From Amphibalanus amphitrite (taxonomy: Eukaryota > Arthropoda > Thecostraca > Balanomorpha > Balanidae), in contig NW_024881829.1 of NCBI RefSeq assembly GCF_019059575.1, positions 593,245 through 657,244 on the forward strand: DNA of 64,000 nt. The letters are read 5' to 3'. The translations under genes were made by a program, and so were the position numbers. The notes beneath the pieces are model-generated. The model was given only the letters and a program-made list of their open reading frames with translations, was not told the DNA's origin and made no database searches. Below are positions 1 through 64,000 of this stretch, one piece after another (the first letter of the stretch is position 1; each line of letters opens with the position of its first letter).

Positions 1-917
1 CGGTGACTCTGAGGGCCCCACCGGCGTCTGACAGTACCATGCCGGCAGTGGCGTCACCACAGGGAGGGGGGGGGGGGCAAGCGGGGCAACATGCCCCCCC
101 CCCCCAACCTCCAAATGGGCACCCTCTGAGATCGATGCAGATCCGAGGAGATTTTGGGATCGAAAAATGGGGGTACCTTCAGAGAAACACTCGCAATGAA
201 CATGCGGCGCAGCCTCTACTCCGAATGAGCTCAGCCTAGCATCGGTACAAAGCCGCGCCGCGCCGCCTGCCGGTCACCTTTAGGCCAGTTTCCATCTATC
301 GGCTGTCTGGCTAACCCGCCCGAAGCCGGGCTGCCTGCCCACGGGCCGGTGCATTTGTCGCCATATTCTGCTAACATACGATAGGCTTCATGTTCACCAT
401 ACATTTGTACTCGCCTTTAGGTGCCGCCTGCCGGCGTGAGAAAGCTCAAACTATAGTTGTGTGCTCCAGGGTATATTGAGTGAAAAGGTGTGCTCAAATT
501 ATAGATGGTATGTCGACTGCCGTCGCTAAACAGAAATATTTTTTTTCATTTTTTATTTGTTTGATCTTTGAGTTTGATCCCAATGCCACTTCAATAGAAT
601 TTATTATGGATATCTTTGTTTTCATTTATCAGTTCTTATTTCACTGACTACGGAAACGGGGTACGTTCCTTACGTGTTTATATATATATTTATTTTTTGA
701 CACACTTGAAACCTGATAATCAGAAGGATGTTTGTTGATGTTGAAAGCAGCAGAAATGCATTCCTCGTTCTTAGCATAGCAAACTGCCTTGATAATACTG
801 AATTGTGATACTGGCCTGAGCCCCTCCAACTTTTCGGCCGGGGGGGGGGGGGGCTGGTAATGTATTTGAGCCCCCCCCCCCCCCAGCTGGAGGAATCGAA
901 ATCGGTAATCTACCAAC

Positions 918-1419
918 CAGGGCTGCGGAGTCGATGGATTTTAGGGTGACTCCGACCCCGACTCCGACTCCGGCTTCAAAAATCGACTCCGACTCCTACT
1001 CCAACTCCGATTCCGACTCCGGATGGTTTTATTAAAATCCATACCATGATATTGAAGTTCATAATGGAGACGTTTTATCTTGCCTGAAACGACCCCTTGT
1101 GCGTTCCAAGACTTTGCGTTGCAAATATGCGTTAAAAATAACATGCAGAATTACAAAGCAGGTTCTTGGGAATTCACCGTCTTCTGCTTGTCTCGCTGAA
1201 AACGTTCGTCCACAACAGCAAAATGGTCTTTTTTCGACAAAATATAATTTCGAGCGCAGTATCGTCAATCATATAGATGCAGTGCATGACGTTGAGCCGC
1301 TAGCGTTAACTCCGACTCCGGAGTCGGAGTCGGTAAGATTTTGGTGACTCCGACTCCGACTCCGGGCAGAAATGTCGACTCCGACCGACTCCAACTCCGA
1401 CTCCGACTCCGCAGCCCTG
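918..1419. mobile_element. hAT MITE with GAGTCG-rich ends, copy 1
   Basis: The ends are inverted CAGGGCTGCGGAGTC and GACTCCGCAGCCCTG, flanked by the 8-bp duplication CTACCAAC (910-917 and 1420-1427). Subterminal blocks of GACTCC/GGAGTC hexamers flank about 280 bp of unique sequence. It is inserted in the larger hAT element that starts at 46. No coding capacity is visible. Confidence 0.9.
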
Positions 1420-1439
1420 CTACCAACATAATTTCATAA

Positions 1440-1600
1440 ATTCCGATACATAGGCGCGGGAACCGGGGGAGGGGGCAGTGGGGGAAGCTTGCCCCCACAA
1501 CTCTGGGGCCGTGGGGGCGGTGCCCCACAACTTTTCATTAGACGCCCAGGAACCGTTGGGGCAGCTTGTCCTCCCCAAATTAGGGGTTATGGATCACAAA
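1440..1600. repeat. Dispersed G-rich repeat, second copy inverted at 25546-25670
   Basis: The stretch carries GCCCCACAACTTTTCAT and neighbouring sequence that recurs in reverse complement at about 25546-25670, including the AACCGTTGGGGCAGCTTG part. I found no clear TIR or TSD, so the class is open. Confidence 0.5.
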
Positions 1601-1608
1601 GAAAGAAA

Positions 1609-1898
1609 CATGGGTGGAACTTTTCCAGGGAAGTTGGTGGGGCAAAAAGTCGTCAAACCCACAATGTCCGATTATGAAGTTGAATAAAATGCCACACTGA
1701 ATCAAAACCTATCATTACAGATAAAATATTTTGCATTTAACTGACACAAAGCTCTTCAATGCGAAAAAGATTAATTTGCAAAGCGACAAAGTCTTGGAAA
1801 CCATCTAAAGTTGGTGGGGTAAAACACTTATTGGTGGGGAAAAATACCAAGTTGGTGAGGCAGCCGCCCCACCAACTGTATAGGAAGCTCCGCCCTTT
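1609..1898. mobile_element. hAT-type MITE with GTTGGTGGGGC repeats
   Basis: The outer ends, CATGGGTGGAACTTTTCC and GGAAGCTCCGCCCTTT, form an imperfect inverted pair. The flanks are GAAAGAAA (1601-1608) and AAAAGAAA (1899-1906), a 7/8 match. The interior repeats GTTGGTGGGG motifs. It is an inverted-orientation relative of the clearer copy at 36140-36432, which supports the call. Confidence 0.6.
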
Positions 1899-2186
1899 AA
1901 AAGAAAGCACGTAAGTGAAAAATCCACCTCTTTCACTGGCTCAGCAACTCATTTGGCAGATTAAAACCTTATTCCAGGTTGCCAAAAATGTAGTTTCTTC
2001 ACTCAGCTGAGACGGAATACCTCACTTTTTTGCAAATATTTTCTCTTTTTTTTTCGTTGCCAAGCTCTGAAAAATAAGTGGCCTAAAACCGATGAGAAAA
2101 CTAGATTTGGGGGTACCCTAGGTTAGGTTTGCAAGATTTGCCCCCCCCCCCAACCAAAAAATCCTGGTGACGCCACTGCATGCCGG

Positions 2187-2492
2187 TCTCTAAGGACCCC
2201 ACAGGACTTCTTCTGCCGGCCTAAGGACCCCTTGCCGGTCACTGAGACCCCCTGCCGGCTTGTAGAGAGTTCGCGTCAACAGCTCTAAAGGCCCCACACC
2301 CGTCTGTGACGGCTCCACACCACTCACCAGCGTCTATGAGGGCCCACAGCAACGCCTGTAAGGACCCTCATCGTCGCCTCTGAGAGAATCACACTAGCAC
2401 CTCTGAGCGCCCACAACGGCACCTGCATGGCGGCCCCACACCGGTGCCTCTAAAGGCTCCTTACCGGCGGCTCTGAGGGCCCTACGCCGGTG
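2187..2492. repeat. Degenerate GC-rich minisatellite
   Basis: Loose repeats of the type CTCTGAGGGCCCCACnCCGG, with units of roughly 20-25 bp and heavy drift. The same material occurs at 1-45, after 2805 and again at 19611-19970. The hAT at 46-2178 and the MITE at 2501-2796 are both inserted in it. Confidence 0.6.
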
Positions 2493-2500
2493 ATTCTGAG

Positions 2501-2796
2501 CAGGGCTGCGGAGTCGGAGTCGGAGTCGGAGTCGGTCGGAGTCGACAGTTGTGACCGGAGTCGGAGTCGGAGTCGGAGTCGATGACTCGATTTTAGAAAC
2601 CCGAGCCGGAGTCGGAGTCGGAGTCACCGAAAATCTGTCGACTCCGCAGCCCTGCTAGGTCTGCGGAGTCGGAGTCGGAGTTGGAGTCGGTCGGAGTCGA
2701 CAATTCTGCCCGGAGTCGGAGTCGGAGTCGGAGCTGGTTTTTGAAAGCCGGAGTCGGAGTCGGAGTCGCCGAAAATTCATCGACTCCGCAGCCCTG
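2501..2796. mobile_element. hAT MITE with GAGTCG-rich ends, copy 2
   Basis: The ends CAGGGCTGCGGAGTC and GACTCCGCAGCCCTG are flanked by the 8-bp duplication ATTCTGAG (2493-2500 and 2797-2804). The interior is almost entirely GGAGTC hexamers. It is built from two head-to-tail half units (2501-2655 and about 2656-2796), each ending in GACTCCGCAGCCCTG. Confidence 0.9.
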
Positions 2797-2804
2797 ATTC
2801 TGAG

Positions 2805-3455
2805 GGTGCTACCGATAACCGAAGGCACCACACAAGCCCTTAGTGTCGCTGAGCTTTAATCCCATACCGGCCCTCCGAGGGCGCCACGTGCTCATTTCCC
2901 CACACCCCTCCCTCACACCCGGAGCGGGTAAACTGTGTTATACCTATAGCAACGATTTTACCACCGTTGTACGTACGTTATGTATTTCTCAAAGTTGACT
3001 CAAGCTGGTGCAGTATAAAATCTGGCCTGCCAAACTTATGGCCAAGGTCAGGCTCAAATCAAAGCGGGATGACAAGAGCAGATGTCAAATCGATACTGTA
3101 TCAGCAGAAACCATTCAGATGGCAAGGAAAATGCCGTGTATTGATGTTTAGATGTATAAAGGAAACAAGAAGGAAAGAAGTCCGGAAAAGGGAGGAAAGA
3201 TCTTTTCTCGCTGCCTCAATGTTGAGGGGGCGCCGCCCCCTCGGCTCCCAAGTTGGGGGGGGGGGGGGGGGGGCAAGCGCCCCCGCTGCCCCCTGTTGCC
3301 GGGTCTATGGGCGTGAACGTTCGCGAACTGTTCGTTGTTTGTTTACCAAAATTTGACCGATGACGTCACTTGTTCGCGAACACATTTGTTCGTGAACAGT
3401 TTGTTTATGTTTGTTTATTTGAAAAATTAAACAAACACCAAACTCTGAAAACAGG
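2805..3455. other. Minisatellite remnant, G-run and GTTCGCGAAC-type palindromes
   Basis: 2805-2900 continues the GC-rich minisatellite. A G-run lies at about 3256-3273. At 3310-3400 there are several short palindromes of the type TTCGCGAAC and TTCGTGAAC. No gene is supported. Confidence 0.4.
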
Positions 3456-4005
3456 ATGGAAAGGCTGGAAGCGGAAATCTACTTAAGGGATCAGAGGATT
3501 GATCAGCTGGAATCTGAAGTGCGCGCATGTCGTGAGTCATTACAGAAACAGGATGAGCAGTTAGACGACATTGAGCGCCACAGCCGCGCCGCAAACTTAG
3601 TCCTTCACTGCCAGAGATTTGTAAATAATCAGACATGATTGAGTTTTATTCACGATCGATGGCAACACAAGTCAAATTCCTAAAACCAATGGTTTTAGGA
3701 ATTTGACTTGTGTTGCCATCGATCGTGAATAAAACTCAAACTGCCAGAGATTTAGAACGAGGCGCGATGGTGAAGATATTAGTGAAATGGCGGTCAAAGC
3801 CATCGCTGTGCACGGTGAGAGTGTGCCCCCCCCCCCTTGGTTAGGCTAGCGATGTCAAGTCCTTGGCTGTCGGGCCCCGGCCCCGGCGTGCGGTCCGCTC
3901 CCGGTGCGTGGGTGCGGGGCGCCGTCCTGCCGGTGGTCGACTCTGGCGGTTGTGTACCTTTTTGCCTGGCGGGGCGAGTCAGATAGTCTCCGGTGGGGTT
4001 TTCGC
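3456..4005 (+). pseudogene. LINE ORF1-like coiled-coil protein fragment, interrupted
   Basis: The reading frame opens with a charged heptad-like stretch (MERLEAEIYLRDQRIDQLES) and continues DDIERHSRAANLVLHCQRF. This resembles the coiled coil and the following 'D-D-L-E-x-x-S-R-R-N' block of ORF1 proteins from several LINE clades. A fold-back insertion (3622-3740) interrupts it. After its removal with one copy of the 13-bp flank the frame reads HCQRFRTRRDGEDISEMAVK up to about 3820, then a C-run and a stop break it. It may be ORF1 of the same LINE whose ORF2 starts at 9754, but that link is inference. Confidence 0.55.
3622..3740. mobile_element. Fold-back insertion: perfect 50-bp palindrome with 13-bp TSD
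   Basis: Arms 3639-3688 and 3690-3739 are perfect inverted copies separated by one base. The flanks repeat CTGCCAGAGATTT exactly (3609-3621 and 3741-3753). The insert lies within the LINE ORF1-like frame and breaks it. Confidence 0.8.
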
Positions 4006-4248
4006 CATTGCACAGTGGCCCTTTTTCAGAATTAGCACGCATTAATTCCCACATTACCTGAAAGTGGTGCAAGACATCACCGCATGATCAAGGACGTATT
4101 CCCTGCCAATGCAAAGAAACGAACTGCCCAAGGAGATTCGGTCCAACAGCGACAGGCCGCTCGGCCCAAGATTTGGCGCACGTTCGCACGGCTCGCCCGC
4201 CGCACAGTGGGCCGATATGCCATTCCAGCGCGACAGGGCCTGAATCAT

Positions 4249-5089
4249 CGAACGGAACCCTCGGTTTTTCCCGAGTAATTCGCGTAAAAAGCGGCCGATT
4301 GCAACGAAACTTTCAGTACCCTCGCGATAATTAATTTCACAGCTAACCTGAAAATTTCATGACCCTGACCTTAATGATCTTTGACCTGTGACCTTCCTTC
4401 GAGACCATGTTTGGCCGGAATCGCGATTCAGCGTATGTCGGCTCGCATTAGCCGCGAGTTTGCAGTCTTTTCGTGGTTTAAAGCGTTCAAGCATGGAGTA
4501 TTATGTTGCTCCCATGCATTAGGGTGGGTGTTTCAAGGTCACCGGAAGGTCAGGTAAGGTCATTGACTTTTGATGACCTTGGGTCAATTTTTCGAGTTTT
4601 ACATGTTTCTAGGCTAGTTTTTGAAGCTGAATTCGAATCTAGCAACCATTTGAACATTTGCTATGTAGCTTTGGTGCCTTCGTAACATGTTACGAAGCTG
4701 TCAGAGGCGGTTGCCACCTACTACAAATACCCGGCAAAACCCTTACTGGTTGACCTGACCTGACCCGACCTGGCCTAAATGCATGAAGACATCATCTATG
4801 ATCATAAATAACATTATATTCGTGATCAGCACCCAAAAAACCCGTAGCAGCCACCCTTTACGACGTTCTAACTGGTCCCGATTTTCCCGACTTTTGGGTC
4901 ATTAACCTGACCTGGAAGATCAACCGATGACCTAGGGCCTACAAATGGGTATCATCAGCTTTCTCTTGTCACGGGCAACACGCTCGTCTTTTCCGGGAAG
5001 CTCTAGCTCGACCAGGGGCGAAACGGCAGGGGGTCCAACGGACCCCTTCTATACGTCCGCGGCTGGAAAAACACCACTAGGGGCGAGGG
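4249..5089. mobile_element. TTAA-type (piggyBac-like) MITE P1, left end missing
   Basis: The sequence parallels the complete element at 34113-34998 from the CGAACGGA block through the right end GGGCGAGGG, followed by TTAA (5090-5093). The left terminal CCCTCGCC and G-run are missing. The interior is rich in TGACCTGACC motifs. Confidence 0.65.
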
Positions 5090-5093
5090 TTAA

Positions 5094-5987
5094 CCCTCGC
5101 CCGTAAACGGTGTTTTGCCACCTTCGCCCATGCAGGGGGGGGGGGGGTTGGTGCGACCCCCCCTGGCGTTTGAAAACGGAGCGTCGTAGAGCTTAGCGGA
5201 AAAGACCAACGGATTGCTCTCAACGATATCTCGCGATTGGTGGTAGTGACCTACTTATGACCGGTCAAAGGTCAAATTTTCGGAAAAATATAACTTTTTC
5301 AGATTTCCGCGCCGATTGCGGCAAAACGGTAAGAGATATCGACTTGAAACCTTCACTATCGTGATCCTTGATCAATTCTCTATCGTTTGGTGTGTATTTC
5401 GATGTCATAACTATAAAAATGATGCGTTGGGAGCATCGGAAGTCTGCAAGGTCATTTGTGCATTGGGTCACGTCAGGCGTGTGACGTCACTGACCTGACC
5501 CTGACCCAAAATGAACTACAAGAAACAACTGACGATGCCTGAAATGGATAGCAAATTCGAATTCAGGGCATCAAAATACCCCGAAAAGGCATACAAGTAC
5601 AAGAAGTCATTACAGGTCAACCGAGGTCACTGACCTGACCTTGACCTTTAGTAACCTTGAAAAGGTCAACGGACATTGTGCCAATGTCAAATCAGCCAGT
5701 TATGATTCTAAAACAATCCATCAGTGTGTCAGGTCAGTCGGCATTTATACCATTGTGAAGCAATCTCCAATTTAGCGTAAATCTGGCCGGAGGTTGTTCC
5801 CTCTATGACGTCATAACTCCATGACTTGACATGACCTTGACAATTTTTTTTTTACCAAAAGTTGCGCAAAGGATGCCCCAAAGGGTACTGAAAATTTGAG
5901 CAGGCTATCTGAAACGGTTCGGCGCGTAGCTATGAAAAACCTCAGGGGGGGGGGGGGGTGCACCAACCCTCCCTACATGGGCGAGGG
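5094..5987. mobile_element. TTAA-type (piggyBac-like) MITE P2
   Basis: It runs from CCCTCGCC to GGGCGAGGG with TTAA on both sides (5090-5093 and 5988-5991). It shares its left TTAA with element P1. G-runs lie about 40-50 bp inside each end (5136-5147 and 5945-5958). TTAA targets and CCY-type termini are traits of piggyBac elements. No transposase is present. Confidence 0.8.
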
Positions 5988-7500
5988 TTAAGCCAAATCT
6001 GAGGGCTTATTTTAGAAAGACCGCCAAAAGAGCAATTGAATGCACTTTTCCGCAACGATGCAGCTCTATTGGTCCCCGAGGTAAGGGCCGGTGTTTCGAG
6101 AAATGTTATATACAACATTTTACCTTTGATGACCTCTGGTGAAGTGATCTTTGACCTGACCTAGAAATGACTAATTAACTATCTGGAATTTCGGGCGCTC
6201 TTTCGAATGCCACTTACTACGTGTCTCTATGTGGCCCAGGAGCCGAGTTAGAAGGGGAGTGTTCAATCAACGCCTCCCGGCCCGGCGCGTTTGACGCCGA
6301 GCACCGGTCCGGCGCGGTTTGATGTTTGGCTGCTACATCCAAAGTCGCAAAAAGTCGCAAGAAATGACTGTTGGATCTTGTAGTGCAATAACTCATTGAC
6401 ATGTAGCGAGATTTTCGAAGCGGTACTTTGCGGTACTTTTTTTAAAAGTCTATTTGTGTGTGACATCAATTATGTAAAATTATATTTTCATCTTTAAATC
6501 TTTGTGGTACAAATACATCATAACCAAGTAAGAGTTCGCCATTTTCATGTGGTCATGTGTGTTCTGCAGACCCGGAGCTATCGTTTAATGTATATAAATG
6601 TGGAATTCCTCCTCAAATTGTGATTGTTTTCGTGGATCAAAGATACGCTGTCGAAGAGTGCGGGGGACGAGTTCGGTCCAAACGATTCCGAAGTTCGTGT
6701 TTAAGCTGAGTTTTCGCCATGAAATAGCAATTGTGTTGGAAAACAAAGACCACAGCAATGTAGTATGATCATTTTTGAACAAATTGGTATAGGTTTCATT
6801 GCACATCCACAAAGTTCGATTTTTGTACCCATGTCGTGCTAGACCTGGCGATCGGCCCAGTGTGCGCCGGCCGGCCCAGGCCGCTCCGAACGCAAGTGTG
6901 GCGAGCCCGCCAGCCGACCGCGCTGCACTGACCGCCAGGACGCCCCAGGGCGTCACGTGACCGCATCTACAGCTGTTGCCAGCCACCGTTATCGGCCCCG
7001 GCCGGGCAGCAACTAAGGTCAGCGCGACGCGAACAATACAAACACATAGGCGCTTTTGACGTTAGATCTTAAGCCGACCACGGCACTTGTGCGGCTTGGA
7101 CATCAAACGCGACAAGAAATCGGACAGTTTTTCTTGAGCACAGCGTTATGCCTACATGACATTTCAATAAGCACATCTTATGGCAAAAGTCAAGCCACAT
7201 TTAGGCGCACACCAGGTGACACCAGCTTTGACCCAGGTCAATGAGCTTAGTCGTATCGAACAGGAGCCACAGCCGCTCGCGGACTGAACTGGCTCACGTT
7301 ATCCACCGTAGAAGCAAAATGGCGCAAAATGGCGCGATGCCCTTTGGTGGACATGGTCAGAAGAGATCGGCGATTCGAACGATGTATAATACGACATGTT
7401 CCAGAGTGTGCTACTTAACATAAAGCTTAATATGTATGCCGCCATCTCCAGTTAATAATTGTCCTGTTATTGTGTCCACAATATTCGGCAAAAGTGGTCT

Positions 7501-7858
7501 ATTTTTTTTTTTTTATAAATTTCGTCCGAACCTTTTGATGGGAAGGATTCACAAGGACAGAGCCATCGCTAAGCGAAGCTTGTTGCGATGACCCTGCCCT
7601 CTACCCTCCGATCGCGCGATTCCGGTTCTATGGCAGAATTTAGAGTCCAAAGTTTAACGTGCGCACAAAGCCGCGCACGGCCGGTCCCCTCGCTGACTTC
7701 GCCTGGCTTCGGCCTGCCACCAACCGCAACCATACCTGTCAGGAGGCCCATAAATGTCGAGCGCCCGTCGCGCTTCGAACCCGGACTGTCATAACCGGGA
7801 ACGCGTGCTCTCACCACGCGGAGTCCAACGCTCTAACCAACTGAGCTACGGGACCGGC
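7501..7858 (-). mobile_element. tRNA-derived SINE, copy 1
   Basis: Read on the minus strand it starts GGTCCCGTAGCTCAGTTGG. Box A (TAGCTCAGTTGG) lies at 7837-7848 and box B (GGGTTCGAAGC) at 7772-7782. A tRNA-unrelated body of about 250 bp follows, ending in an A-run (T-run at 7501-7514 on the plus strand). The equivalent Transib-like copy at about 58184 lacks it, with only ATTT at the junction, so the insertion is defined against an empty site. A related copy lies at 31893-32225. Confidence 0.85.
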
Positions 7859-8202
7859 AAATTTAAGTTTATACAATGAAAATTGTGGTTTCTAGGGCTT
7901 CTACGTAAACTCAGCTTCACAGCCATGCCACTAATTTTTAATATTTTCTCACCGAAAGCCTTACAAATTGATGTTCATCTCACCCTACTTTTTAGGGTCC
8001 GCCGGTGGTGTCCGCGCGCCTCTCGACAAACTTCGATTTTGCGGTCAGTTTTACCAAAGATAATTATTTTTTAGGAGGTAAAAATGGCACCATCGGATAG
8101 TTTGGAATGTTTTGCACACGATTAGACTGCTTTTACTCAAAAGGAGAGAAAAAAAAATTGAATTTATGCGTGCTAATCCTGAAAAAGGGCCACTGTGCAT
8201 TG

Positions 8203-12378: not shown

Positions 12379-14166
12379 TAGAGGTGGAAATGACTAACGT
12401 TTTCCAAAATCTTGACTAATGACTGACTAATGACTAATGACAATTTTGGTTGACTGACTTTTGACTGACTAATCTTTGGTCTCAAAAGGCTTGACTGACT
12501 AATGAATGACTAACGCCATTTTTCTTGATTTTGACTAATATTTGACTAAATTTCGAAATTTGTTAGCACTGCGTAAATAATTCCGATCGACAACGGAAAA
12601 ACACAAATCGATCTCAAATTTTCTCCCTAATCATGTTATGGCCAACGCGATGCGAAGCCACCGCAAGATATCTTGTCGGCCGCTACGACGCCTGGTTAGG
12701 GAGATAACAGGCGGGGAGGGGGGGGGGTAAAATTTATCCCCCAGCCGGGCGCGTTCGGCCGGCGACCCCCAGTGGGGCGCGGATTAACCCTCGCCCGGCC
12801 CTGGCAGGGCATTTTTCGTAACGCGGCCTGGCTGGGGGGGGGGGGGGGGAGTCGATGCGACCCTTCTGGCGTTTCGAAACTAAGCGTCGTGGCGTTTCGC
12901 AACAAAGACCAGTCGAATGGTCGCAACGAGTACTCGCGATTGGTGGTATATTTTTTACCATAGGTCAATATTTGACCCAGTTATGACAGGTCATTGGTCA
13001 AAGGTCAAATTTCATGGAAAAACTATAATTTTCCAAATTACTTCGCCAATATTGGCGATGGCGAATCTATGAAAGATAGCGACATGAAACTTTCACGACC
13101 GCGTTTCGCAACGAATTACCAACAACATGAGGTATAGTTGACTGCATTTCAGTCATTACTGGCGTGACGTATTCCCCGGGAACACGGGAGGTCACGCCCG
13201 CCGCCGGCGAGGACGTTTGCGAATATCGGGAGCCTTCCAACTAATCGAGTCAACATTGGTGCATCTATGAAAGATAAAGACTTGCAACTTCGAAGAGCGT
13301 ATTCCTCAGAAGAGCGTATTCCTCAGCTGCAAAATTACATATTGTTGACTTTTTATGACTTTTTATGGTGATAAAAAAGGCTTTCAATGACGTCACGTAC
13401 CACGGTACCTGGCCCAAAAAGCCGCAAGGCTATGCTCGCTGACCGGCAGCAGCAGCGGCCGCCCGTCAACCGGAGACCTGGGGAAGTGGGGAGTTCACTG
13501 CCACTTGTAGGAACAGTTTTGAAGGCGTTTAGGTGAAAATTGAACCGCAGATTCGGATTCAGGACCTCAAGAAACCCCACTACGGACACTAAACACAGCT
13601 CATATCACTGAGGTCAGCGTGTGAACATGCGAGATCATCTTGGTTGACCTTAGAAAGGTCAATATACAATGTAAAGATCATGTCCAGTCAAATTCTGACA
13701 TAAACCACACGGAATAGTTTCGTTCTTGTCGATGAGATCACGTCCAGTTACGGTATGTACGATTTTGTTAGAAACGGTTGGAGGTTGTACTTATTATGAC
13801 ATCATAGCTCGGTGAACTGACATGACCCGATTTTTTTTTGTCTAGCAAAAGTTGTGCAAAGGATACCCCAGAGACTATTGAAAATTTCAGCACGATCCGA
13901 CTAATAGGTAGTTCAGCGCGCATCGCAAAAAAACTCTTGGGGGGGAGGGGTCGCATCGACCCCTCACCTGCCAGGGCGAGGGTTAAGTCACCTCACGAAC
14001 CACGACAAATTAGTCGACTAATATCATGCAACAAAATCATTGACTAATGACTGACTAATGACTAACAAACATTTTGGATGACTGACTTTTGACTGACTAA
14101 AAAAGTGCTTGACTAACGTTAGTCGACTAATTTTTGACTAATGACTAATATTCATTTCCACCTCTA
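12379..14166. mobile_element. hAT element with TGACTAAT subterminal repeats
   Basis: Ends TAGAGGTGGAAATGA and TCATTTCCACCTCTA are inverted. GTAGGCAC flanks both sides (12371-12378 and 14167-14174), an 8-bp hAT TSD. Family Y copy 2 has the empty site at about 27199. Dense TGACTAAT/TGACTGACT repeats occupy about 150-200 bp inside each end, and a TTAA element (12788-13982) sits in the middle. Confidence 0.92.
12788..13982. mobile_element. TTAA-type (piggyBac-like) MITE P3
   Basis: CCCTCGCCC at the left and GGGCGAGGG at the right are flanked by TTAA (12784-12787 and 13983-13986). A long G-run lies at 12834-12849 and a shorter one near 13939. The interior holds AGGTCA/TGACCT motifs. A G-run-bearing fragment at 12710-12783, ending GGCGCGGATTAA, is a remnant of a related element abutting it on the left. 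Confidence 0.8.
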
Positions 14167-17106: not shown

Positions 17107-18465
17107 CAGGGTGTCCCGAAATTGATGCGCGGTTGGTGCCGCATGTTATGTTGTCCCTCCCGAGTGCTGAACAACTGCAATTTTACCGGCTATGGCACCA
17201 CGGACATCTTGCTGGTCACACGATCACGTGAACCAAGCGGCTAACCCGACCGCGGCCGGTGGTGGGCGCGGGAGGCCACTCTTGTCCAGACAGGCAACGT
17301 GGAGAAACCGCATATCACCAAAAGTGAAAAGGCACAAACTACCGATCCGCTACCGCGCGGTGGGGATGATCAAGGACGGTGTGACCCAGGTTCCGGATGC
17401 CAGAGAATTGGGCGTCAACTCTGCGACAATTAAACTTTGGATGGACTGCAAACGATCAGGAGAGACACTCAAGAACAGCACAGTTCGAGGGCGGAAGACT
17501 GCCTTGAGCAGAGTGGCGAAAATCGTGATTGCAAAGTCGACCTTTAAAAAGCACCATTCAACATCGCTGACAAGAAAACTGAATGAGATGCATGTTCCAG
17601 CATCCAAATCGACCCTCCACCAGTATTTGAAGACTATCTTGAAGCTGAAGCTGCTCAGCTTCAGGATGCAGACTTGGCCTACCGTGGTCCAGAAGTGCAG
17701 GCAGCTGGATTTCGCCAAGACCCACAAAAACTGGACCATTCAGGACTGGAGATGCGTCCTTTTCAGTGACAAGGTGCCCTTTGTGGTCTCTAAGCCCCTT
17801 ACTGCCAGAACGATCGAAATGTGGGCCAACGGCAGCTCTGAGGAGTCCGCTGTCGAGACCGTGAAACGTCTGCTGAAGAATCTCATTTGGAGCATGATGA
17901 GCTACAGAGGCGCTCTGGCCTCTGAGCTTTACGAGGTGCCTCGGGGACAGACCGTGACTGCTTATTATTATGTCAACGAGGTGCTGGAGAAGACTGATGC
18001 CACAAAGATGCTGAGGGAAAAGGTAAATGGTTCAAAAACCAGACTCAAACTTTTGTCCGACATGCCCAGGGCCATTTTCCAGCAAGAAAGGGCTCCAGCT
18101 TATCACGCCAGGAAGACCCAGGACTGGTGCCGAGCGAGGCTCCCAGGCCTCTGGGAGAAGGGGACATGGTCTGGCAACAGTCTGGACCTGTCCCCGATCC
18201 AAATTATCTGGACGATCGTCAGAAAAGAGCTCAGCAAGCTTCCACGGGCTAGCTCAGAGAAGAGGCTGTTTCAGAAGATATAAACGGCATGGCGTTGTTT
18301 CACAGGAGAGACTCTTGACAACCTGAAACGTGACACGCTAGAGTGCAATAGGCCGTGTATGCAACTGAATGGGGACTATGATAACATATAAGCCGTGAAA
18401 TAAATTCGAGCACTTTATAAGTTATTGAGGATAGAACAACCGCGCATCAATTTCGGGACACCCTG
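17107..18465 (+). mobile_element. Tc1/mariner-superfamily element, 1359 bp
   Basis: Perfect 29-bp inverted ends starting CAGGGTGTCCCGAAATTG at 17107-17135 and 18437-18465, with TA duplicated outside (17105-17106 and 18466-18467). One transposase frame fills it. Confidence 0.95.
17192..18283 (+). pseudogene. Tc1/mariner-like transposase with altered catalytic residues
   Basis: A 363-aa open frame. Residues about 45-110 look like a paired helix-turn-helix DNA-binding region (RYRAVGMIKDGVTQVPDARE). The first catalytic aspartate is present (LFSDKVPF, D193). The second site reads QQERAPAYH, with E299 where QQD is usual. The third reads SPIQIIW, with Q337 where SPIENLW is usual. The spacing of 37 residues between the second and third sites suggests a DD37E-type family. 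The start at 17192 is the first ATG after the left TIR. With two of three catalytic residues replaced the product should not cleave DNA, although the frame and TIRs are intact. It could be a decayed copy or a retained DNA-binding protein; the first is more likely. Confidence 0.8.
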
Positions 18466-25943: not shown

Positions 25944-26537
25944 CCCACGAGCCGCTGGGGGGGGGGGGGGCATAAAGTTGCCCCCCTTTACGTTTTGTGA
26001 AATATCTCCGAAACCTGATGAGCTACGAACGTGAAACTTGGCATAGCTTCAAATGAATACCTAGGCAATATTTGAAAAAAGTTTGGTGGTTGTAGCACCT
26101 AAGATGACGTCACAGTAACGTCATAAAGTTTTGTCGTTTTCCGATATGGACCGTTTCTGATGACGCTGAGCATGAAACTCAACTGTAAATGAACTAGACA
26201 GCACCTGCTGTCATCCTAAAACATCTAACTACACTTCCATCTAGTTCCTGACCAATAATCGGCCCTTTATATTCGGTCCCATATATCTGATGTATCGTGA
26301 GGAATATGAGAGCCGCAAATCTATAATTTCACTTATGACGTCACTGTGACGTCATTTCAAATGGGATCGACACCAAATTTGGACACAATCTTGGCTAGGT
26401 ATTCAGGAAGATGTGTGCAAAGTTTCGCTTCTCTATCTCTTCGCGTTGCGACGATATCGTCGCAGAAGTAAAGGGGGGGCAACTATATGCCCCCCCCAGC
26501 GGCCGGCGGGTGGCGCGGAGGCCCAGCGGCCGCCGGG
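25944..26537. mobile_element. TTAA-type MITE P5
   Basis: Starts CCCACGAGCCGCTGGGGG and ends CCCAGCGGCCGCCGGG, with TTAA outside (25940-25943 and 26538-26541). G-run near the left end, C-run near the right. The right TTAA is shared with P6. Confidence 0.75.
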
Positions 26538-28366: not shown

Positions 28367-29241
28367 CCCTCCCCGTATAGGGGGAGGGGTCGAACAGACC
28401 CCACCCCCCTCGATTTTTCGCGAATAACTCGCGTAAAAACGGCTAATGGCGACGAAACTTTCAGTACCCTCGAGTTAATCAATTTTGCATCTACCCTGAA
28501 ATTTTAATTACCCTTACCCAAGTGACCTTTGACCTGTGACCTATTTCTCGAGACCATGTTTGGCCGGGATCGCGATTCGGCGTATGTTGGCTCGCATTAG
28601 CCGCGCGTTTGCAGTCTTTTCGTGGTTTCAAGCGTTCAAACATGTGATATGATGTTTGTCCCATGCATTTGGATGGGTGTGAAGGTCACCTGAAGGTCAG
28701 GTCAGGTCATTGACCTTTGATGACCTCAGTTCACTTTTTCGAGTTTTACATGTTTCTAGGCTAGTTTTTGGAGCTGAACTCGAATTCAGCAACCATTTGA
28801 ACATTTACGAAGTACTTTAAGTGCCTTCGTAACATGTTACGAAGCTGTCAGAGGCGGTTGACACGTACTACGAATACCCGGCAGGACCACTACTGGTTGA
28901 CCTGACCCGACCTGGCCTAAATGCATGAAGACATCTTCTGGGATCAACACTAACACGATATTCGTGATCAGCACCCCGGAAAAGCTCAGCCACACTTACG
29001 ACGCTCTAACAGGTCCCAATTTTCCCGACTTTTGGGTCATTGACCTGACCTGGAAGGTCAACCATGAAGGTAGACCTAGGACCTTAAATTGGGCATCATC
29101 GTCTTCCTCTCGTCACGGGCAGCACGCTCGTTTTTTTTTTCGCGAAGCTCTAGCTCGATCAGCGGCCAAACGGCAATGGGGGCAACGCCCCCCTCCCCCC
29201 CTATACGTTCGCGGCTGACAAAACGCCAATACGGGCGAGGT
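28367..29241. mobile_element. TTAA-type MITE P7
   Basis: TTAA (28363-28366) then CCCTCCCCGTATAGGGGG; the right end reads ATACGGGCGAGGT then TTAA (29242-29245). The interior closely follows P1 and P9, with TGACCT motifs. Confidence 0.75.
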
Positions 29242-29325
29242 TTAAATCCATATACATTCAGGCATGAGACAAGAAAGCTCCTGTTTAATAGTGTTAATGA
29301 ACTATGAAGAAGCTTCAGCTATTAA

Positions 29326-30504: not shown

Positions 30505-30668
30505 CCTTCGCCGGCACAGGCCATTTTGACTCTGGTTGGCAGAGTTTTTCACGTTTGCCCCAAGGTCACTCAATCATCAAAGCAATATTTCAGTTTTCAG
30601 CATAGGAACTTTGAGAATGTTTATTTTTGGTAATATTACTAAGTCCTCGAGCGAGGAACATATTGAAT
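30505..30668. mobile_element. TTAA-type left-end remnant
   Basis: TTAA (30501-30504) followed by CCTTCGCCGGCAC, the same start as P6; no right end was found. Confidence 0.4.
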
Positions 30669-30927
30669 ATAATTAGATAAATAAAAGAAATTGACCTTTT
30701 CCTCGACATCAAAAATGTAAAAAGCCGAATAATATATTTAAAAAAAAACGGTGAGCTTTCGGCCACTGGCCTTTATCAAACCAACGTGATAACAATGTTA
30801 ATGTTATCACGTTGGTTTGATAAAGGCCAGTGGCCGAAAGCTCACCGTTTTTTTTAAAATATATTATTCGGCTTTTTACATTTTTGATGTCGAGGAAAAG
30901 GTCAACTTCTTTTATTTATCTAATTAT
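30669..30927. repeat. Large palindrome, about 126-bp arms
   Basis: Arms 30669-30794 and 30802-30927 are nearly perfect inverted copies around 7 bp. The only differences I see are one base near the outer end and A-run length. The centre reads GTGATAACAATGTTAATG. Confidence 0.85.
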
Positions 30928-30949
30928 AATGTTTATTTTTTAGTTTTCT

Positions 30950-31892: not shown

Positions 31893-32225
31893 TTTTGTCG
31901 GTAGAGCGTTGGACTCCGCGTGGTGAGGGCACGCGTCCCGGTTATAACAGTCCGGGTTCGAAGCGCGACAGAGTCGCTCGATGTTTCCTCCTGGCGAGTA
32001 TGGTTGCGGTTGGTGGCAGGTCGTAGTCAGTCGAAGTCAGTGAGGGGACCGGCCGTGCGCGGCTATGTGCATACGTTAAACTTTGGGCTCTAACTTCTGC
32101 CATAGATCAGGAATTGCGCGATCGGAGGGTAGAGGGCAGGGCCAACGCAACAAGCTCTGCTTAGCGGGAGCTTTGTCCTTGTGAATCCTTCCATTCAAAA
32201 GGTCCGGACTAAATTTATAAAAAAG
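31893..32225 (+). mobile_element. tRNA-derived SINE, copy 2, head truncated
   Basis: It matches the complement of 7501-7858: GGTAGAGCGTTGGACTCCGC, box B GGGTTCGAAGC at about 31953, the same body, ending ATTTATAAAAAAG. Box A is missing. Confidence 0.8.
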
Positions 32226-43562: not shown

Positions 43563-44260
43563 CGCATGTGTTTTTTATAGCGCGGAGAAAAAAATAGGAT
43601 TGTTAGGGTTAACCAGGGAGTCACCGATGTTAGATCCCTCTCTGGGTCCTTTCATAGGAGGTCACGGTCCTGACCCGAGATAGCTGAGCTGTGTCGCAGC
43701 CCTGACCTCAGACAGCTGAGCTGTGCACGCCGTCGGCTCGGCCGTCAGTCGCCACAGCCGCTGACGCCAGTGTCCAAACAGCTCCAAACAATATCCGGCC
43801 CTGTATAGCAGGATAAGCCATCAGAGGCGGGAGTGATCACCGGAACGGGCTGCATGGTACAGGACGGGCTGGGAACACGTCAACTCCAGCATGACGTGTT
43901 CCCAGTGTACCTGCATGTAGTTTCTTTATTCCTCAGCAGTTGTCATCCCCTTGGCGTTAGTGTTTCGCGTCCCTCCATTGATCACTCCCGCCTCTGATGG
44001 CTTATCCTGCTATACATGGCCGGATATTGTTTGGAGCTGTTTGGACACTGGCGTCAGCGGCTGTGGCGACTGACGGCCGAGCCGACGGCGTGCACAGCTC
44101 AGCTGTCTGAGCCCTGAGGTCAGGGCTGTGACACAGCTCAGCTATCTCGGGTCAGGACTGTGACCTATGAAAGGACCCACAGAGGGGTCTAACATCGGTG
44201 ACTCCCTGCTTAACCCTAACAATCCCCACTTTTTTGTCCGCGATATAAAAAACACATGCG
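43563..44260. repeat. Long inverted repeat of array unit 1 (arms about 280 bp)
   Basis: Left arm 43563-43839 and right arm 43979-44260 are near-identical inverted copies; the central 139 bp contains its own hairpin (GGGAACACGTCA..TGACGTGTTCCC). Equivalent structures lie at 47416-48115, 52797-53496, 57305-59006 (split by the Transib-like MITE) and 62498-63196. Confidence 0.9.
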
Positions 44261-46669: not shown

Positions 46670-48133
46670 TTATATGTAATTGTTACTTGAATATATTCGT
46701 ATGCTACTTGCTCTTTACCACATCCTGGTATGTTACTGGGAGCGGCACGGTGTGTGTTGGGTGCTTCTGACGGTCAGTTGTATTAACTGTTAGTTCCTCT
46801 ACTGGCCACCAGGTGAAAAGCGTATTAGCTGTACAGCAATGTAGTTGCTTCAGCTTTGGCGTAAACTTTCTCCTCTTCCGCTCACCATTCACCACCAGAG
46901 TCAGCAGCGTCTCGGCTGGCGGTCCAGTCAGTCAGGGCGAGTGTCTTCACTCGCCACAGCGGGCCGGACCCATTACAGGGCAGCAGAGTTATCAGTTACC
47001 AAGCTTTGGCCTATAAAGAAAACCAGGAAATAGTAGCAATTGCATATATGTAATGATTCTACTCTATTACGATTGAGCTAGCGAAGCGTATTCCTGTAAC
47101 GTTTTTAATAGGCTTGTAAGTCAGCAACCGCTGGGCTGATTGACCTGCGTTACTCTTTGTTGCGCGTAATCCTATCCCTTCCATCTCGTTATTGACTACA
47201 ACTGATGTATCTTGGTGAGTTATTGACTACAACTGATGTATCATGGTGAGCGTCGTGACACGTGCGACGTGAAGGGCCAAGAGTGTTCGTTATTCTGCTG
47301 CAGTAGCGATTTTGGGTTGCTCATATATCTTGAACCCTGAACTGCCACGCCGATTGCGCTCAAATTTGGTACACTGTTTGGGACTGGTTGATAGGGATGT
47401 GTTTTTTTTATAACTCGCATGTGTTTTTTTATAGTGCGGAGAAAAAAGTAGGAATTGTTAGGGTTAAGCAGGGAGTCACCGATGTTAGATCCCTCTCTGG
47501 GTCTTTTCATAGGGGGTCACGGTCCTGACCCGAGATAGCTGAGCTGTGTCGCAGCCCTGACCTCAGACAGCTGAGCTGTGCACGCCGTCGGCTCGGCCGT
47601 CAGTCGCCACAGCCGCTGACGCCAGTGTCCAAACAGCTCCCAACAATATCCGGCCCTGTATAGCAGGATGAGCCATCAGAGGCGGGAGTGATCACCGGAA
47701 CGGGCTGCATGGTACAGGACGGGCTGGGAACACGTCAACTCCAGCATGACGTGTTCCCAGTGTACCTGCATGTAGTTTCTTTATTCCTCAGCAGTTGTCA
47801 TCCCCTTGGCGTTAGTGTTTCGCGTCCCTCCATTGATCACTCCCGCCTCTGATGTCTTATCCTGCTATACAGGGCCGGATATTGTTTGGAGCTGTTTGGA
47901 CACTGGCGTCAGCGTCTGTGGCGACTGACGGCCGAGCCGACGGCGTGCACAGCTCAGCTGTCTGAGCCCTGAGGTCAGGGCTGCGACACAGCTCAGCTAT
48001 CTCGGGTCAGGACCGTGACCTATGAAAGGACGCAGAGAGGGATCTAACATCGGTGACTCCCTGCTTAACCCTAACAATCCCGACTTTTTTGTCCGCGATA
48101 TAAAAAACACATGCGGTTAGGCTACCTGTGTCG

Positions 48134-52099: not shown

Positions 52100-53514
52100 A
52101 CATCCTGGTATGTTACTGGGAGCGGCACGGTGTGTGTTGGGTGCTTCTGACGGTCAGTTGTATTAACTGTTAGTTCCTCTACTGGCCACCAGGTGAAAAG
52201 CGTATTAGCTGTACAGCAATGTAGTTGCTTCAGCTTTGGCGTAAACTTTCTCCTCTTCCGCTCACCATTCACCACCAGAGTCAGCAGCGTCTCGGCTGGC
52301 GGTCCAGTCAGTCAGGGCGAGTGTCTTCACTCGCCACAGCGGGCCGGACCCATTACAGGGCAGCAGAGTTATCAGTTACCAAGCTTTGGCCTATAAAGAA
52401 AACCAGGAAATAGTAGCAATTGCATATATGTAATGATTCTACTCTATTACGATTGAGCTAGCGAAGCGTATTCCTGTAACGTTTTTAATAGGCTTGTAAG
52501 TCAGCAACCGCTGGGCTGATTGACCTGCGTTACTCTTTGTTGCGCGTAATCCTATCCCTTCCATCTCGTTATTGACTACAACTGATGTATCTTGGTGAGT
52601 TATTGACTACAACTGATGTATCATGGTGAGCGTCGTGACACGTGCGACGTGAAGGGCCAAGAGTGTTCGTTATTCTGCTGCAGTAGCGATTTTGGGTTGC
52701 TCATATATCTTGAACCCTGAACTGCCACGCCGATTGCGCTCAAATTTGGTACACTGTTTGGGACTGGTTGATAGGGATGTGTTTTTTTTTATAACTCGCA
52801 TGTGTTTTTTTATAGTGCGGAGAAAAAAGTAGGAATTGTTAGGGTTAAGCAGGGAGTCACCGATGTTAGATCCCTCTCTGGGTCTTTTCATAGGGGGTCA
52901 CGGTCCTGACCCGAGATAGCTGAGCTGTGTCGCAGCCCTGACCTCAGACAGCTGAGCTGTGCACGCCGTCGGCTCGGCCGTCAGTCGCCACAGCCGCTGA
53001 CGCCAGTGTCCAAACAGCTCCCAACAATATCCGGCCCTGTATAGCAGGATGAGCCATCAGAGGCGGGAGTGATCACCGGAACGGGCTGCATGGTACAGGA
53101 CGGGCTGGGAACACGTCAACTCCAGCATGACGTGTTCCCAGTGTACCTGCATGTAGTTTCTTTATTCCTCAGCAGTTGTCATCCCCTTGGCGTTAGTGTT
53201 TCGCGTCCCTCCATTGATCACTCCCGCCTCTGATGTCTTATCCTGCTATACAGGGCCGGATATTGTTTGGAGCTGTTTGGACACTGGCGTCAGCGTCTGT
53301 GGCGACTGACGGCCGAGCCGACGGCGTGCACAGCTCAGCTGTCTGAGCCCTGAGGTCAGGGCTGCGACACAGCTCAGCTATCTCGGGTCAGGACCGTGAC
53401 CTATGAAAGGACGCAGAGAGGGATCTAACATCGGTGACTCCCTGCTTAACCCTAACAATCCCGACTTTTTTGTCCGCGATATAAAAAACACATGCGGTTA
53501 GGCTACCTGTGTCG

Positions 53515-56614: not shown

Positions 56615-57517
56615 GTACGTTACTGGGAGCGGCACGGTTTGTGTTGGGTGCTTCTGACGGTCAGTTGTGGTAACTGTTAGTTCCTCTACTGGCCACCAGG
56701 TGAAAAGCGTATTAGCTGTACAGCAATGTAGAGTTGCTTCAGCTTTGGCGTAAACTTTCTCCTCTTCCGCTCACCAATCACCACCAGAGTCAGCAGCGTC
56801 TCGGCTGGCGGTCCAGTCAGTCAGGGCGAGTGTCTTCACTCGCCACAGCGGGCCGGACCCATTACAGGGCAGCAGAGTTATCAGTTACCAAGCCTTGGCC
56901 TATAAAGAAAACCAGGAAATAGTAGCAATTGCATATATGTAATGATTCTACTATATTACGATTGAGCTAGCGAAGCGTATTCCTGTAAAGTTTTTAATAG
57001 GCTTGTAAGTCAGCAACTGCTGGGCTGATTGACCTGCGTTACTCTTTGTTGTGCGTAATCCTATCCCTTCCATCTCGTTATTGACTACAACTGATGTATC
57101 TTGATGAGTTATTGACTACAACTGATGTATCATGGTGAGCGTCGTGACACGTGCGACGTGAAGGGCCAAGAGTGTTCGTTATTCTGCTGCAGTAGCGATT
57201 TTGGGTTGCTCATATATCTTGAACCCTGAACTGCCACGCCGATTGCGCTCAAATTTGGTACACTGTTTGGGACTGGTTGATAGGGATGTGTTTTTTTTTA
57301 TAACTCGCATGTGTTGTTTTATAGCGCGGAGAAAAAAGTAGGGATTGTTAGGGTTAAGCAGGGAGTCACCGATGTTAGATCCCTCTCTGGGTCTTTTCAT
57401 AGGGGGTCACGGTCCTGACCCGAGATAGCTGAGCTGTGTCGCAGCCCTGCCCTCAGACAGCTGAGCTGTGCACGCCGTCGGCTCGGCCGTAAGTCGCCAC
57501 AGCCGCTGACGCCAGTG

Positions 57518-58520
57518 CACAGTGGCCCTTTTTCAGAATTAGCACGCATTAATTCCCACAATACCTGAAAGTGGTGCAAGACATCACCACGTGATCAAGG
57601 ACGTATTCCCTGCCAATGCAAAGAGAAGAAAAGAAACGAACTGCCCAAGGAGATTCGGCCCAACAGCGACAGACCGCTCGGGCCAAGATTTGGCGCACGT
57701 TTGCACGGCTCGCCCGCCGGCCAGGCCGCTCCGAACGCAAGTGTGGCGAGCCCGCCAGCCGACCGCGCTGCACTGACCGCCAGGACGCCCCAGGGCGTCA
57801 CGTGACCGCATCTACAGCTGTTGCCAGCCACCGTTAGTGTAATTTCAATTAGCACATCTTATGGCAAAAGTCAAGCCACATTTAGGCGCACACCAGGTGA
57901 CACCAGCTTCGAGCCAGGTCAATGAGCTTAGTCGTATCGAACAGGAGCCACAGCCGCTCGTGGACTGAACTGGCTCACGTTATCCACCGTAGAAGCAAAA
58001 TGGCGCAAAATGGCGCGATGCCCTTTGGTGGACATGGTCAGAAGAGATCGGCGATTCGAACGATGTATAATACGACATGTTCCAGAGTGTGCTACTTAAC
58101 ATAAAGCTTCATATGTATGCCGCCATCTCCAGTTAATAATTGTCCTGTTATTGTATCAACAATATTCGGCAAAAGTGGTCTATTTAAGTTTATACAATGA
58201 AAATTGTGGTTTCTAGGGCTTCTACGTAAACTCAGCTTCACAGCCATGCCACTAATTTTTAATATTTTCTCACCGAAAGCCTTACAAATTGATGTTCATC
58301 TCAACCTACTTTTTAGGGTCCGCCGGTGGTGTCCGCGCGCCTCTCGACAAACTTCGATTTTGCGGTCAGTTTTACCAAAGATAATTATTTTTTAGGAGGT
58401 AAAAATGGCACCATCGGATAGTTTGGAATGTTTTGCACACGATTAGACTGCTTTTTACTCAAAAGAAGAGAAAAAATATTTTGAATTTATGCGTGCTAAT
58501 TCTGAAAAAGGGCCACTGTG
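57518..58520. mobile_element. Transib-like MITE, copy 2 (1003 bp)
   Basis: CACAGTGGCCCTTTTTCAG at the left and its complement at the right; CAGTG on both sides (57513-57517 and 58521-58525). The four sister units have the single site GCCAGTGTCC. It lacks the nested element and SINE of copy 1, so it approximates the unmodified element. No transposase. Confidence 0.85.
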
Positions 58521-59273
58521 CAGTGTCCAAACAGCTCCAAAAAATATCCGGCCCTGTATAGCAGGATAAGCCATCAGAGGCGGGAGTGATCACCGGAACG
58601 GGCTGCATGGTACAGGACGGGCTGGGAACACGTCAACTCCAGCATGACGTGTTCCCAGTGTACCTGCATGTAGTTTCTTTATTCCTCAGCAGTTGTCATC
58701 TCCTTGGCGTTAGTGTTTCGCGTCCCTCCATTGATCACTCCCGCCTCTGATGGCTTATCCTGCTATACAGGGCCGGATATTGTTTGGAGCTGTTTGGACA
58801 CTAGCTTCAGCGGCTGTGGCGACTGACGGCCGAGCCGACGGCGTGCACAGCTCAGCTGTCTGAGGTCAGGGCTGCGACACAGCTCAGCTATCTCGGGTCA
58901 GGAGCGTGACCTATGAAAGGACCCAGAGAGGGATCTAACATCGGTGACTCCCTGCTTAACCCTAACAATCCCCACTTTTTTGTCCGCGATATAAAAAACA
59001 CATGCGGTTAGGCTACCTGTGTCGAATTAATTAAAGTTTATTATGTCAAAGTTTCAAAACATCAATCCGGTCTGCATGTCTGACTGCTCGCAGAACGGTT
59101 CTAGAGGCAGTGTCAGCGCGCGCGGAACGGACCTCAGATGTGTCCACTTTCAAGCGCGGAACGTTCCTACTGCGCCACCAGACTCCTCTCCCTCTCCCCT
59201 CCCCCCTGTCCGCTGGTCTATGTCAGACACCAGTACACCACTGACCTCCCCTACCCTCCCCTGACCTTCTCAG

Positions 59274-61910: not shown

Positions 61911-64000
61911 GCTGTACAGCAATGTAGTTGCTTCAGCTTTGGCGTAAACTTTCTCCTCTTCCGCTCACCATTCACCACCAGAGTCAGCAGCGTCTCGGCT
62001 GGCGGTCCAGTCAGTCAGGGCGAGTGTCTTCACTCGCCACAGCGGGCCGGACCCATTACAGGGCAGCAGAGTTATCAGTTACCAAGCTTTGGCCTATAAA
62101 GAAAACCAGGAAATAGTAGCAATTGCATATATGTAATGATTCTACTCTATTACGATTGAGCTAGCGAAGCGTATTCCTGTAACGTTTTTAATAGGCTTGT
62201 AAGTCAGCAACCGCTGGGCTGATTGACCTGCGTTACTCTTTGTTGCGCGTAATCCTATCCCTTCCATCTCGTTATTGACTACAACTGATGTATCTTGGTG
62301 AGTTATTGACTACAACTGATGTATCATGGTGAGCGTCGTGACACGTGCGACGTGAAGGGCCAAGAGTGTTCGTTATTCTGCTGCAGTAGCGATTTTGGGT
62401 TGCTCATATATCTTGAACCCTGAACTGCCACGCCGATTGCGCTCAAATTTGGTACACTGTTTGGGACTGGTTGATAGGGATGTGTTTTTTTATAACTCGC
62501 ATGTGTTTTTTTATAGTGCGGAGAAAAAAGTAGGAATTGTTAGGGTTAGCAGGGAGTCACCGATGTTAGATCCCTCTCTGGGTCTTTTCATAGGGGGTCA
62601 CGGTCCTGACCCGAGATAGCTGAGCTGTGTCGCAGCCCTGACCTCAGACAGCTGAGCTGTGCACGCCGTCGGCTCGGCCGTCAGTCGCCACAGCCGCTGA
62701 CGCCAGTGTCCAAACAGCTCCCAACAATATCCGGCCCTGTATAGCAGGATGAGCCATCAGAGGCGGGAGTGATCACCGGAACGGGCTGCATGGTACAGGA
62801 CGGGCTGGGAACACGTCAACTCCAGCATGACGTGTTCCCAGTGTACCTGCATGTAGTTTCTTTATTCCTCAGCAGTTGTCATCCCCTTGGCGTTAGTGTT
62901 TCGCGTCCCTCCATTGATCACTCCCGCCTCTGATGTCTTATCCTGCTATACAGGGCCGGATATTGTTTGGAGCTGTTTGGACACTGGCGTCAGCGTCTGT
63001 GGCGACTGACGGCCGAGCTGACGGCGTGCACAGCTCAGCTGTCTGAGCCCTGAGGTCAGGGCTGCGACACAGCTCAGCTATCTCGGGTCAGACCGTGACC
63101 TATGGAAGGACGCAGAGAGGGATCTAACATCGGTGACTCCCTGCTTAACCCTAACAATCCCGACTTTTTTGTCCGCGATATAAAAAACACATGCGGTTAG
63201 GCTACCTGTGTCGAATTAATTAAAGCTTATTATGTCAAAGTTTCAAAACATCAATCCGGTCTGCATGTCTGACTGCTCGCAGAACGGTTCTAGAGGCAGT
63301 GTCAGCGCGCGCGGAACGGTCCTCAGATGTGTCCACTTTCAAGCGCGGAACGTCCTACTGCGCCACCAGACTCCTCTCCCTCTCCCCTCCCCCCTGTCCG
63401 CTGGTCTATGTCAACACCATATACCCACTGACCTCCCCTACCCTCCCCTGACCTTCTCAGGTGCCAGCTGAGACGCTGGTCGGCCTACAGAACCTGCTCG
63501 TTCACCTGCGGGACGTCTCGGCAGAAAACGCGCACGTCTACCAGTACCGACTCTGGGACGCTAAGAGGGTCAAGGTGGAGACCGCCCGAACAGGGTATGT
63601 CAGACACCGTAACACAAGCCGTAACGCAGGTCGTTACACAGGGCGTGAAATAGATTGAACACAGACCGTAACATAGATCGAACACAGACCGTAACACTGG
63701 CTGCGTACGTGCGGCACTCGGGGCCGCCGAACTGGGCTGGATCCATTGGGCAATGAACAGGTGCTTTCTGTGACAGCGTCACCGCTGCAGTCGTCAGGGC
63801 ACACAGACACTGCACCCGGCGCCCTTGTGCATGGTACAGGCTCGCGGGTTTTAGCGGTAGGTTTTGCACCTAGAAAATTTAGTGTACTTTCAGGCTATAT
63901 CTTCGTCGTCTTAAGCTTTAAGTGTTGAAGATGCGATCGACTTGTTTGGTAACAAGCCGGCCATGATCGTGTAAAATGGCTTCATCGTAGATCGATTAGT
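61911..64000 (+). repeat. Tandem array unit 5, partial, runs off the window
   Basis: Same core. It carries no RNase H LINE at 63213 (plain TCGAATTAATTAAAGC). Several one-base differences and small indels appear from about 62545 on. Confidence 0.85.
63461..63594 (+). pseudogene. Exon-like segment A, unit 5, frame broken
   Basis: The same exon with a one-base loss near its end (GCCCGAACAGG instead of GCCCAGAACAGG). The loss may be real or a sequencing error. Confidence 0.5.

Follow-up and report, generated by a model that had tools for sequence, protein, structure and literature searches.

Transib transposons are the source of the RAG1 core, the antibody-shuffling enzyme, and three insertions in a 64,000-nucleotide stretch of Amphibalanus amphitrite DNA (hereafter the window) raise the question of whether they belong to this superfamily and what moved them. 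Our analysis confirmed that these insertions, E1, E2 and E3, are non-autonomous, cut-down Transib transposons. E1 and E3 almost certainly derive, by internal deletion, from an autonomous Transib line that has a full-length, open-frame member in the same genome, and E2 is a copy of a second Transib family.

E1 spans positions 4011..8197 on the forward strand and its flanks, read directly, repeat CATTG at 4006..4010 and 8198..8202, giving the borders CATTG-CACAGTG...CACTGTG-CATTG. Its 38-bp left terminal inverted repeat (TIR; 4011..4048, forward) is matched at 36 of 38 positions by the right TIR (8160..8197, reverse). E3 occupies 57518..58520 (1003 bp, forward) between two copies of CAGTG at 57513..57517 and 58521..58525, with the borders CAGTG-CACAGTG...CACTGTG-CAGTG and with TIRs at 57518..57555 (forward) and 58483..58520 (reverse) that agree at 37 of 38 positions. 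E2 lies at 4203..6864 (forward) inside E1, flanked by CGCCG at 4198..4202 and 6865..6869; its borders are CGCCG-CACAGTG...CAGTGTG-CGCCG, the right end thus reading CACACTG inward, and its right arm matches the left at 24 of 33 positions by manual count. A heptamer starting with CAC therefore begins all six termini. The first-pass annotation had proposed these ends with their 5-bp flanks, and a single family for E1 and E3 with a TIR of at least 38 bp, and our re-reading agrees: with E2 taken out, E1 is identical to E3 at 969 of 991 common alignment columns. E3 lacks about 160 bp that are present in E1, which carries two later insertions, E2 and a tRNA-derived SINE on the reverse strand (approximate ends 7502..7860). 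The SINE is absent from E3 and has a relative at 31902-32227; its tRNA-like head was read by eye, and ARAGORN reports no tRNA in the window.

Empty sites bear directly on the borders. The host of E3 is one copy of a repeated unit, and once E3 and one CAGTG are removed the joined flanks match four unfilled paralogues in the window at 97.75-98%, each with one CAGTG (43768..43772, 47623..47627, 53004..53008 and 62704..62708); this match places the boundary at CACAGTG and makes the target site duplication (TSD) exactly 5 bp. The nesting of E2 in E1, also proposed from the first, is borne out by L009, L010 and L011, stretches on three other contigs in which this E1 insertion is present, E2 is missing and CGCCG occurs once at the site. 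E1 and E3 have a further 5-base difference at the E2 site, which these three stretches assign to E3.

We also scanned the window for CAC...GTG pairs that lie 80-6000 apart, have the same 5-mer on both flanks and match at 10 or more of 14 end bases. The scan returned 8 rows: E1, E2 and E3 score 14, 13 and 14 and are the only ones to combine at least 13 of 14 terminal matches with identical 5-base flanks, and each of the remaining five scores 10, three starting in a tandem array. Sixty Markov resamples gave a mean of 0.62 rows and a maximum of 3. With other flank lengths the top row was a 13/14 pair at 26111-26348 with the flank ACGT, which is not a clean CAC-ended insertion because the inverted repeat continues through the flank. 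A short element at 26104-26355 has an inverted repeat of 23 bp that resembles TGACGTCACAGTRACGTCATAA and lies around 26111, with CACAGT inside the arm.

We then looked for the E1 family in the 807.55-Mb assembly (2644 contigs) that contains the window. The left 190 bp of E1 found 422 candidates, and the 40 that were scored were all 94-100% identical; 39 of these were fetched, the window's own E1 being left out. Both ends were present in 29 of the 39 first stretches, with an exact 5-bp TSD in 28 of the 29. Nine of the remaining ten copies were fetched as longer stretches, which added six two-ended copies, four of them with an exact 5-bp TSD. The 5-bp duplication that had been read as a Transib hallmark in the window, with the suggestion that TSD lengths be tabulated over many copies, is thus found in 32 of 35 two-ended copies. 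Even the three exceptions, L040, L057 and L059, keep an identical 5-mer on both sides (CAGGG, CATTG and CATTG): two extra bases precede the left heptamer in L040, and four interrupt it in L057 and L059, both at E1's own site. This split heptamer, CACCACTAGTGG for CACAGTGG, recurs at E1's own site on four contigs (L016, L057, L058 and L059) and may represent either a footprint or a mutation that they have in common. Since E1's own left flank is common to eight stretches (these four together with L009, L010, L011 and L013), whether by duplication or as separate haplotypes, the copies outnumber the independent sites.

The duplicated sequences themselves follow a rule. In a manual count of 28 TSDs, of which E1's own site supplies 3 rows, the first base is C in 27, the second A or G in 27, the fourth C or T in 26 and the fifth G in 26, so that the E1 family clearly targets sites around CRNYG. 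Beyond the TSD the flanks tend towards TTGGC ahead of the element and GCCAA behind it, in counts symmetrised by adding reverse complements. The 23 copies near 1.17 kb have a mean identity of 98.3% (range 95.9-100%), which supports the view that the family was probably active recently.

The first-pass annotation had held that the window lacks a transposase and that an autonomous relative must have existed elsewhere. The first point stands, in that tblastn with two Transib transposases of the same genome found none in the window at E 0.01. Neither did Pfam recognise a transposase domain in the 20 frames searched, out of 61 that overlap E1 or E3 and are 50 aa or longer (best match DUF3667, E 0.0061, below its cut-off), and no Rfam family reached its gathering score in the window. 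The same tblastn search (E 0.01) found no transposase in 48 fetched stretches, and TIR scans of viral_contigs and genome_contigs gave 0 matches.

The relative is present in the same genome. A genome search with Pfam RAG1 gave one weak place, which led to a 752-aa Transib transposase, C57 (HzTransib match E 4.3e-106), in a 2886-bp element with the TSD GTCGG and 19 of 20 end bases matching. As a genome query the C57 transposase found 164 candidates, and the 60 that were scored gave 70 Transib matches; about 35 places are 35-46% identical to it, many in open frames of 680-782 aa. Flanks of about 0.7-1.7 kb per side were fetched for 19 transposase places, and three TIR types were told apart in the genome, those of C57, C1218 and C422/C681. 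Among the 19 places, the E1 TIR stands next to the C1218 transposase, at 32 of 32 bases. The C1218 element (C1218:31311-35114) is 3804 bp long, has CGGTG as TSD on both sides and at both ends carries TIRs equal to E1's over 32 bases. Its 780-aa frame, counted stop to stop, is unbroken and starts with Met; over 665 aa compared it matches HzTransib (PDB 6pqn) with E 4.5e-100, so that a full-length copy with the same TIR does encode a RAG1-core-like transposase, as the annotation had proposed to check. The protein is 37.4% identical to the C57 transposase and scores 18.9 bits against Pfam RAG1, below the cut-off of 25. Its acidic motifs are kept, KWGMDGS, MTMVDGK and SEEAAES aligning with KWGFDGA, MTMIDGK and SEEASEA of HzTransib, and we take them to hold the catalytic DDE triad. 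Another 780-aa frame, at C1093, lies beside the same right TIR, after which comes CAGTG, the left end lying outside the fetched piece; C1218 and C1093 are the only fetched E1-family copies that lie with a transposase.

Alignment of a 1.17-kb copy to C1218 matches the left 81 bp at 100% and the right 1011 bp at 94.3% over 1013 columns, which makes the 1.17-kb copies internal-deletion derivatives of the C1218 line. However, for 77 bp of the copy close to the left junction (positions 82-158) C1218 offers no convincing source, the best match being 21 bp, so this copy is not a single clean deletion of C1218 itself. We propose that a C1218-type transposase would bind the shared TIR through the heptamer CACAGTG and the inner AGCACG block, cut at the heptamer border and excise the element, which would then be pasted near CRNYG with a 5-bp stagger, leaving the 5-bp duplication. 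This cut-and-paste chemistry is carried over from HzTransib and RAG and would also have let E2, with its own TIR, jump into E1. The C1218 transposase, rather than a relative, presumably moved the E1 and E3 copies.

The right 870 bp of E2 found 3138 candidates, and the 40 scored were 95-100% identical over 869-870 of 870 bases. Three further copies of its family measure 1766-1778 bp and are each flanked by a 5-bp TSD (CGGTG, CGCCG and CGCCG). All three are without the 0.9-kb TTAA-flanked element at 5094..5987, whose ends are CCCTCGCCC/GGGCGAGGG, and this piece is therefore a later insertion in E2. A ACAAAAATC string was seen by eye in the right end of E2, about 30 bp away from its heptamer. The 19 flank pairs yielded no transposase carrying the TIR of E2: nothing in them exceeded 20 of 33 matching bases (about 0.7-1.7 kb per side, so that TIRs may lie further out). 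All three insertions are Transib, as the first-pass annotation had suggested, with the refinement that E2 is from another family than E1 and E3 and has a TIR of its own.

The alternative that survives best is that the E1 transposase also moved E2 and that the two families form one system, which we regard as possible though unlikely. E1 and E2 do share the CACAGTGG start and an AGCRCG block placed 16 bp (E1) or 17 bp (E2) from the heptamer, and the alignment score of their inner right ends was reached by only 10 of 2000 shuffles, that of the E1 left with the E2 right end by 44 of 2000. However, pairs with the E2 left end align no more closely than shuffled sequence (1144 and 1929 of 2000), and by our reading the 17-bp spacing and GGGTCC/GGGCC-type start of E2 are nearer the C422/C681 Transib TIR.

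A second alternative, that E1-E3 are relics of a RAG-like transposon of the RAG1L-RAG2L (ProtoRAG) type and not Transib, is very improbable. RAGL transposons likewise have TIRs starting with CAC and 5-bp TSDs (PMC7204232, PMC8289069), and ProtoRAG and its kin resemble the E1 family in the CAC heptamer, the GC-biased 5-bp TSDs and the two-block TIR, as far as these are described in PMC8289069 and PMC9435367. The C422 heptamer CACTATG, of another Transib family in this genome, even equals the TR1 given for ProtoRAG in PMC8289069. Protein similarity tells the families apart, for the C1218 transposase, which shares the E1 TIR, matches HzTransib at E 4.5e-100 but amphioxus-type RAG1L (6b40) far more weakly, at E 1.3e-8. 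No RAG2-like gene was recognised in C1218, where a listing of frames shows the others of at least 90 aa to be only 96-207 aa long; a Pfam RAG2 search of the genome gave zero matches, as did its controls, so that it counts for neither side. Further, the E1 TIR contains neither the ProtoRAG TR5 block as given in PMC8289069 nor the protostome RAGL consensus as given in PMC7204232. Weakest is the notion that these are the ends of another superfamily (hAT, with CAGTGG ends and an 8-bp TSD, or a 4-bp-TSD family) and the 5 bp a framing accident, which is hardly credible: shifting the boundary 2 bp inwards does leave E1 and E3 between two copies of the 4-bp TGCA, a fit by flank alone, but the four E3 empty sites read GCCAGTGTCC, without TGCA, and together with the failure of the CAGTGG/TGCA frame for E2 refute it, no 8-bp TSD as in hAT was found, and C1218, the full-length element that shares this TIR, codes for a Transib transposase.

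As Transib elements, these families also invite comparison with V(D)J recombination signals. The heptamer CACAGTG at the starts of E1-E3 is identical to that of the signals, and in the window the six E1-E3 termini and nothing else fit CAC..TG N13-20 AGCRCG, a pattern chosen after viewing them. In E1, E2, C422 and C681 the AGC block lies 16-17 bp from the heptamer and reads AGCACG or AGCGCG, or AGCACA in the C422 left end. The genome holds at least three Transib families by TIR, and in two of them a CAAAAAT block stands 23 bp away from the heptamer: [CT]CAAAAAT[AG] was found at exactly this distance at all five ends read (both of C57, both of C422 and one of C681). Like the signals, these two other families thus have an A-rich block at 23 bp, which in C57, C422 and C681 matches the nonamer ACAAAAACC at 6 of 9 bases. 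Unlike the signals, E1/E3 and E2 score low there (5/9 and 3-4/9), and there is no 12/23 asymmetry. Nor is the 23-bp position unique, since at 29 bp C422R scores 7/9 and C681L an equal 6/9. The heptamer-spacer-block layout is known in kind, since for Transibs already described PMC8355894 reports blocks resembling the nonamer, with symmetric spacers of 20-22 bp. We found no literature linking Transib with TAGCACG, and nothing related for CACAGTGGCC with transposon.

E1-E3 themselves are ordinary Transib deletion derivatives. The E1 family agrees with Transibs such as HzTransib and Transib5 of Drosophila in its transposase match, CAC-heptamer TIR and 5-bp TSD. Hztransib is given as 3518 bp long with the 5-bp TSD GCTCG (PMC1852546); unlike it, the E1 family has its own TIR beyond the heptamer, and the C1218 stop-to-stop frame is 780 aa against 489 aa quoted for Hztransib. 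According to PMC4411706 autonomous Transibs typically occur as a single copy or a few at most, whereas deletion copies of the E1 family are numerous (422 candidates, 40 of them scored). Although the finding is ordinary in kind, its evidence is unusually complete in that full-length member, deletion offspring and targets are all in hand. A full-length, open-frame Transib with recent offspring and sister families offers matched pairs of enzyme and signal, which would serve in testing how the heptamer, the spacer and the nonamer-like block are recognised. We suggest, tentatively and as the less likely case, that the several open-frame Transib lineages of this genome, with their heptamer-23-A-rich or AGCACG TIRs and deletion families, form a living series of RSS-like signals and recombinases; if so, the series would make directly readable both the passage from degenerate to 23RSS-like signals and the mobilisation of one family by another.

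The window holds several other repeats. A tandem array with (GA)n tracts runs from 42969 to 64000. It consists of units, each about 5.4 kb, and pieces related to them, with identities of up to 98-99%, and one unit holds E3; the array contains a 505-aa, RNase H-bearing frame twice (48166-49683 and 53547-55064) and 31-bp markers. Elements ending in CCCTCGCCC/GGGCGAGGG and adjoining TTAA occur at 12784-13986 and 34113-34998 besides the one in E2, with TCAA after the end near 34998, and a related piece lies near 28367-29245. The three elements are presumably piggyBac-like. A near-perfect, almost loopless inverted repeat with arms of about 130 bp (96.6%) lies at 30668-30928. Finally, a 370-aa open frame at 17171-18283 has a faint match to the Sleeping Beauty transposase (E 0.22), and our guess is that it is Tc1-like.
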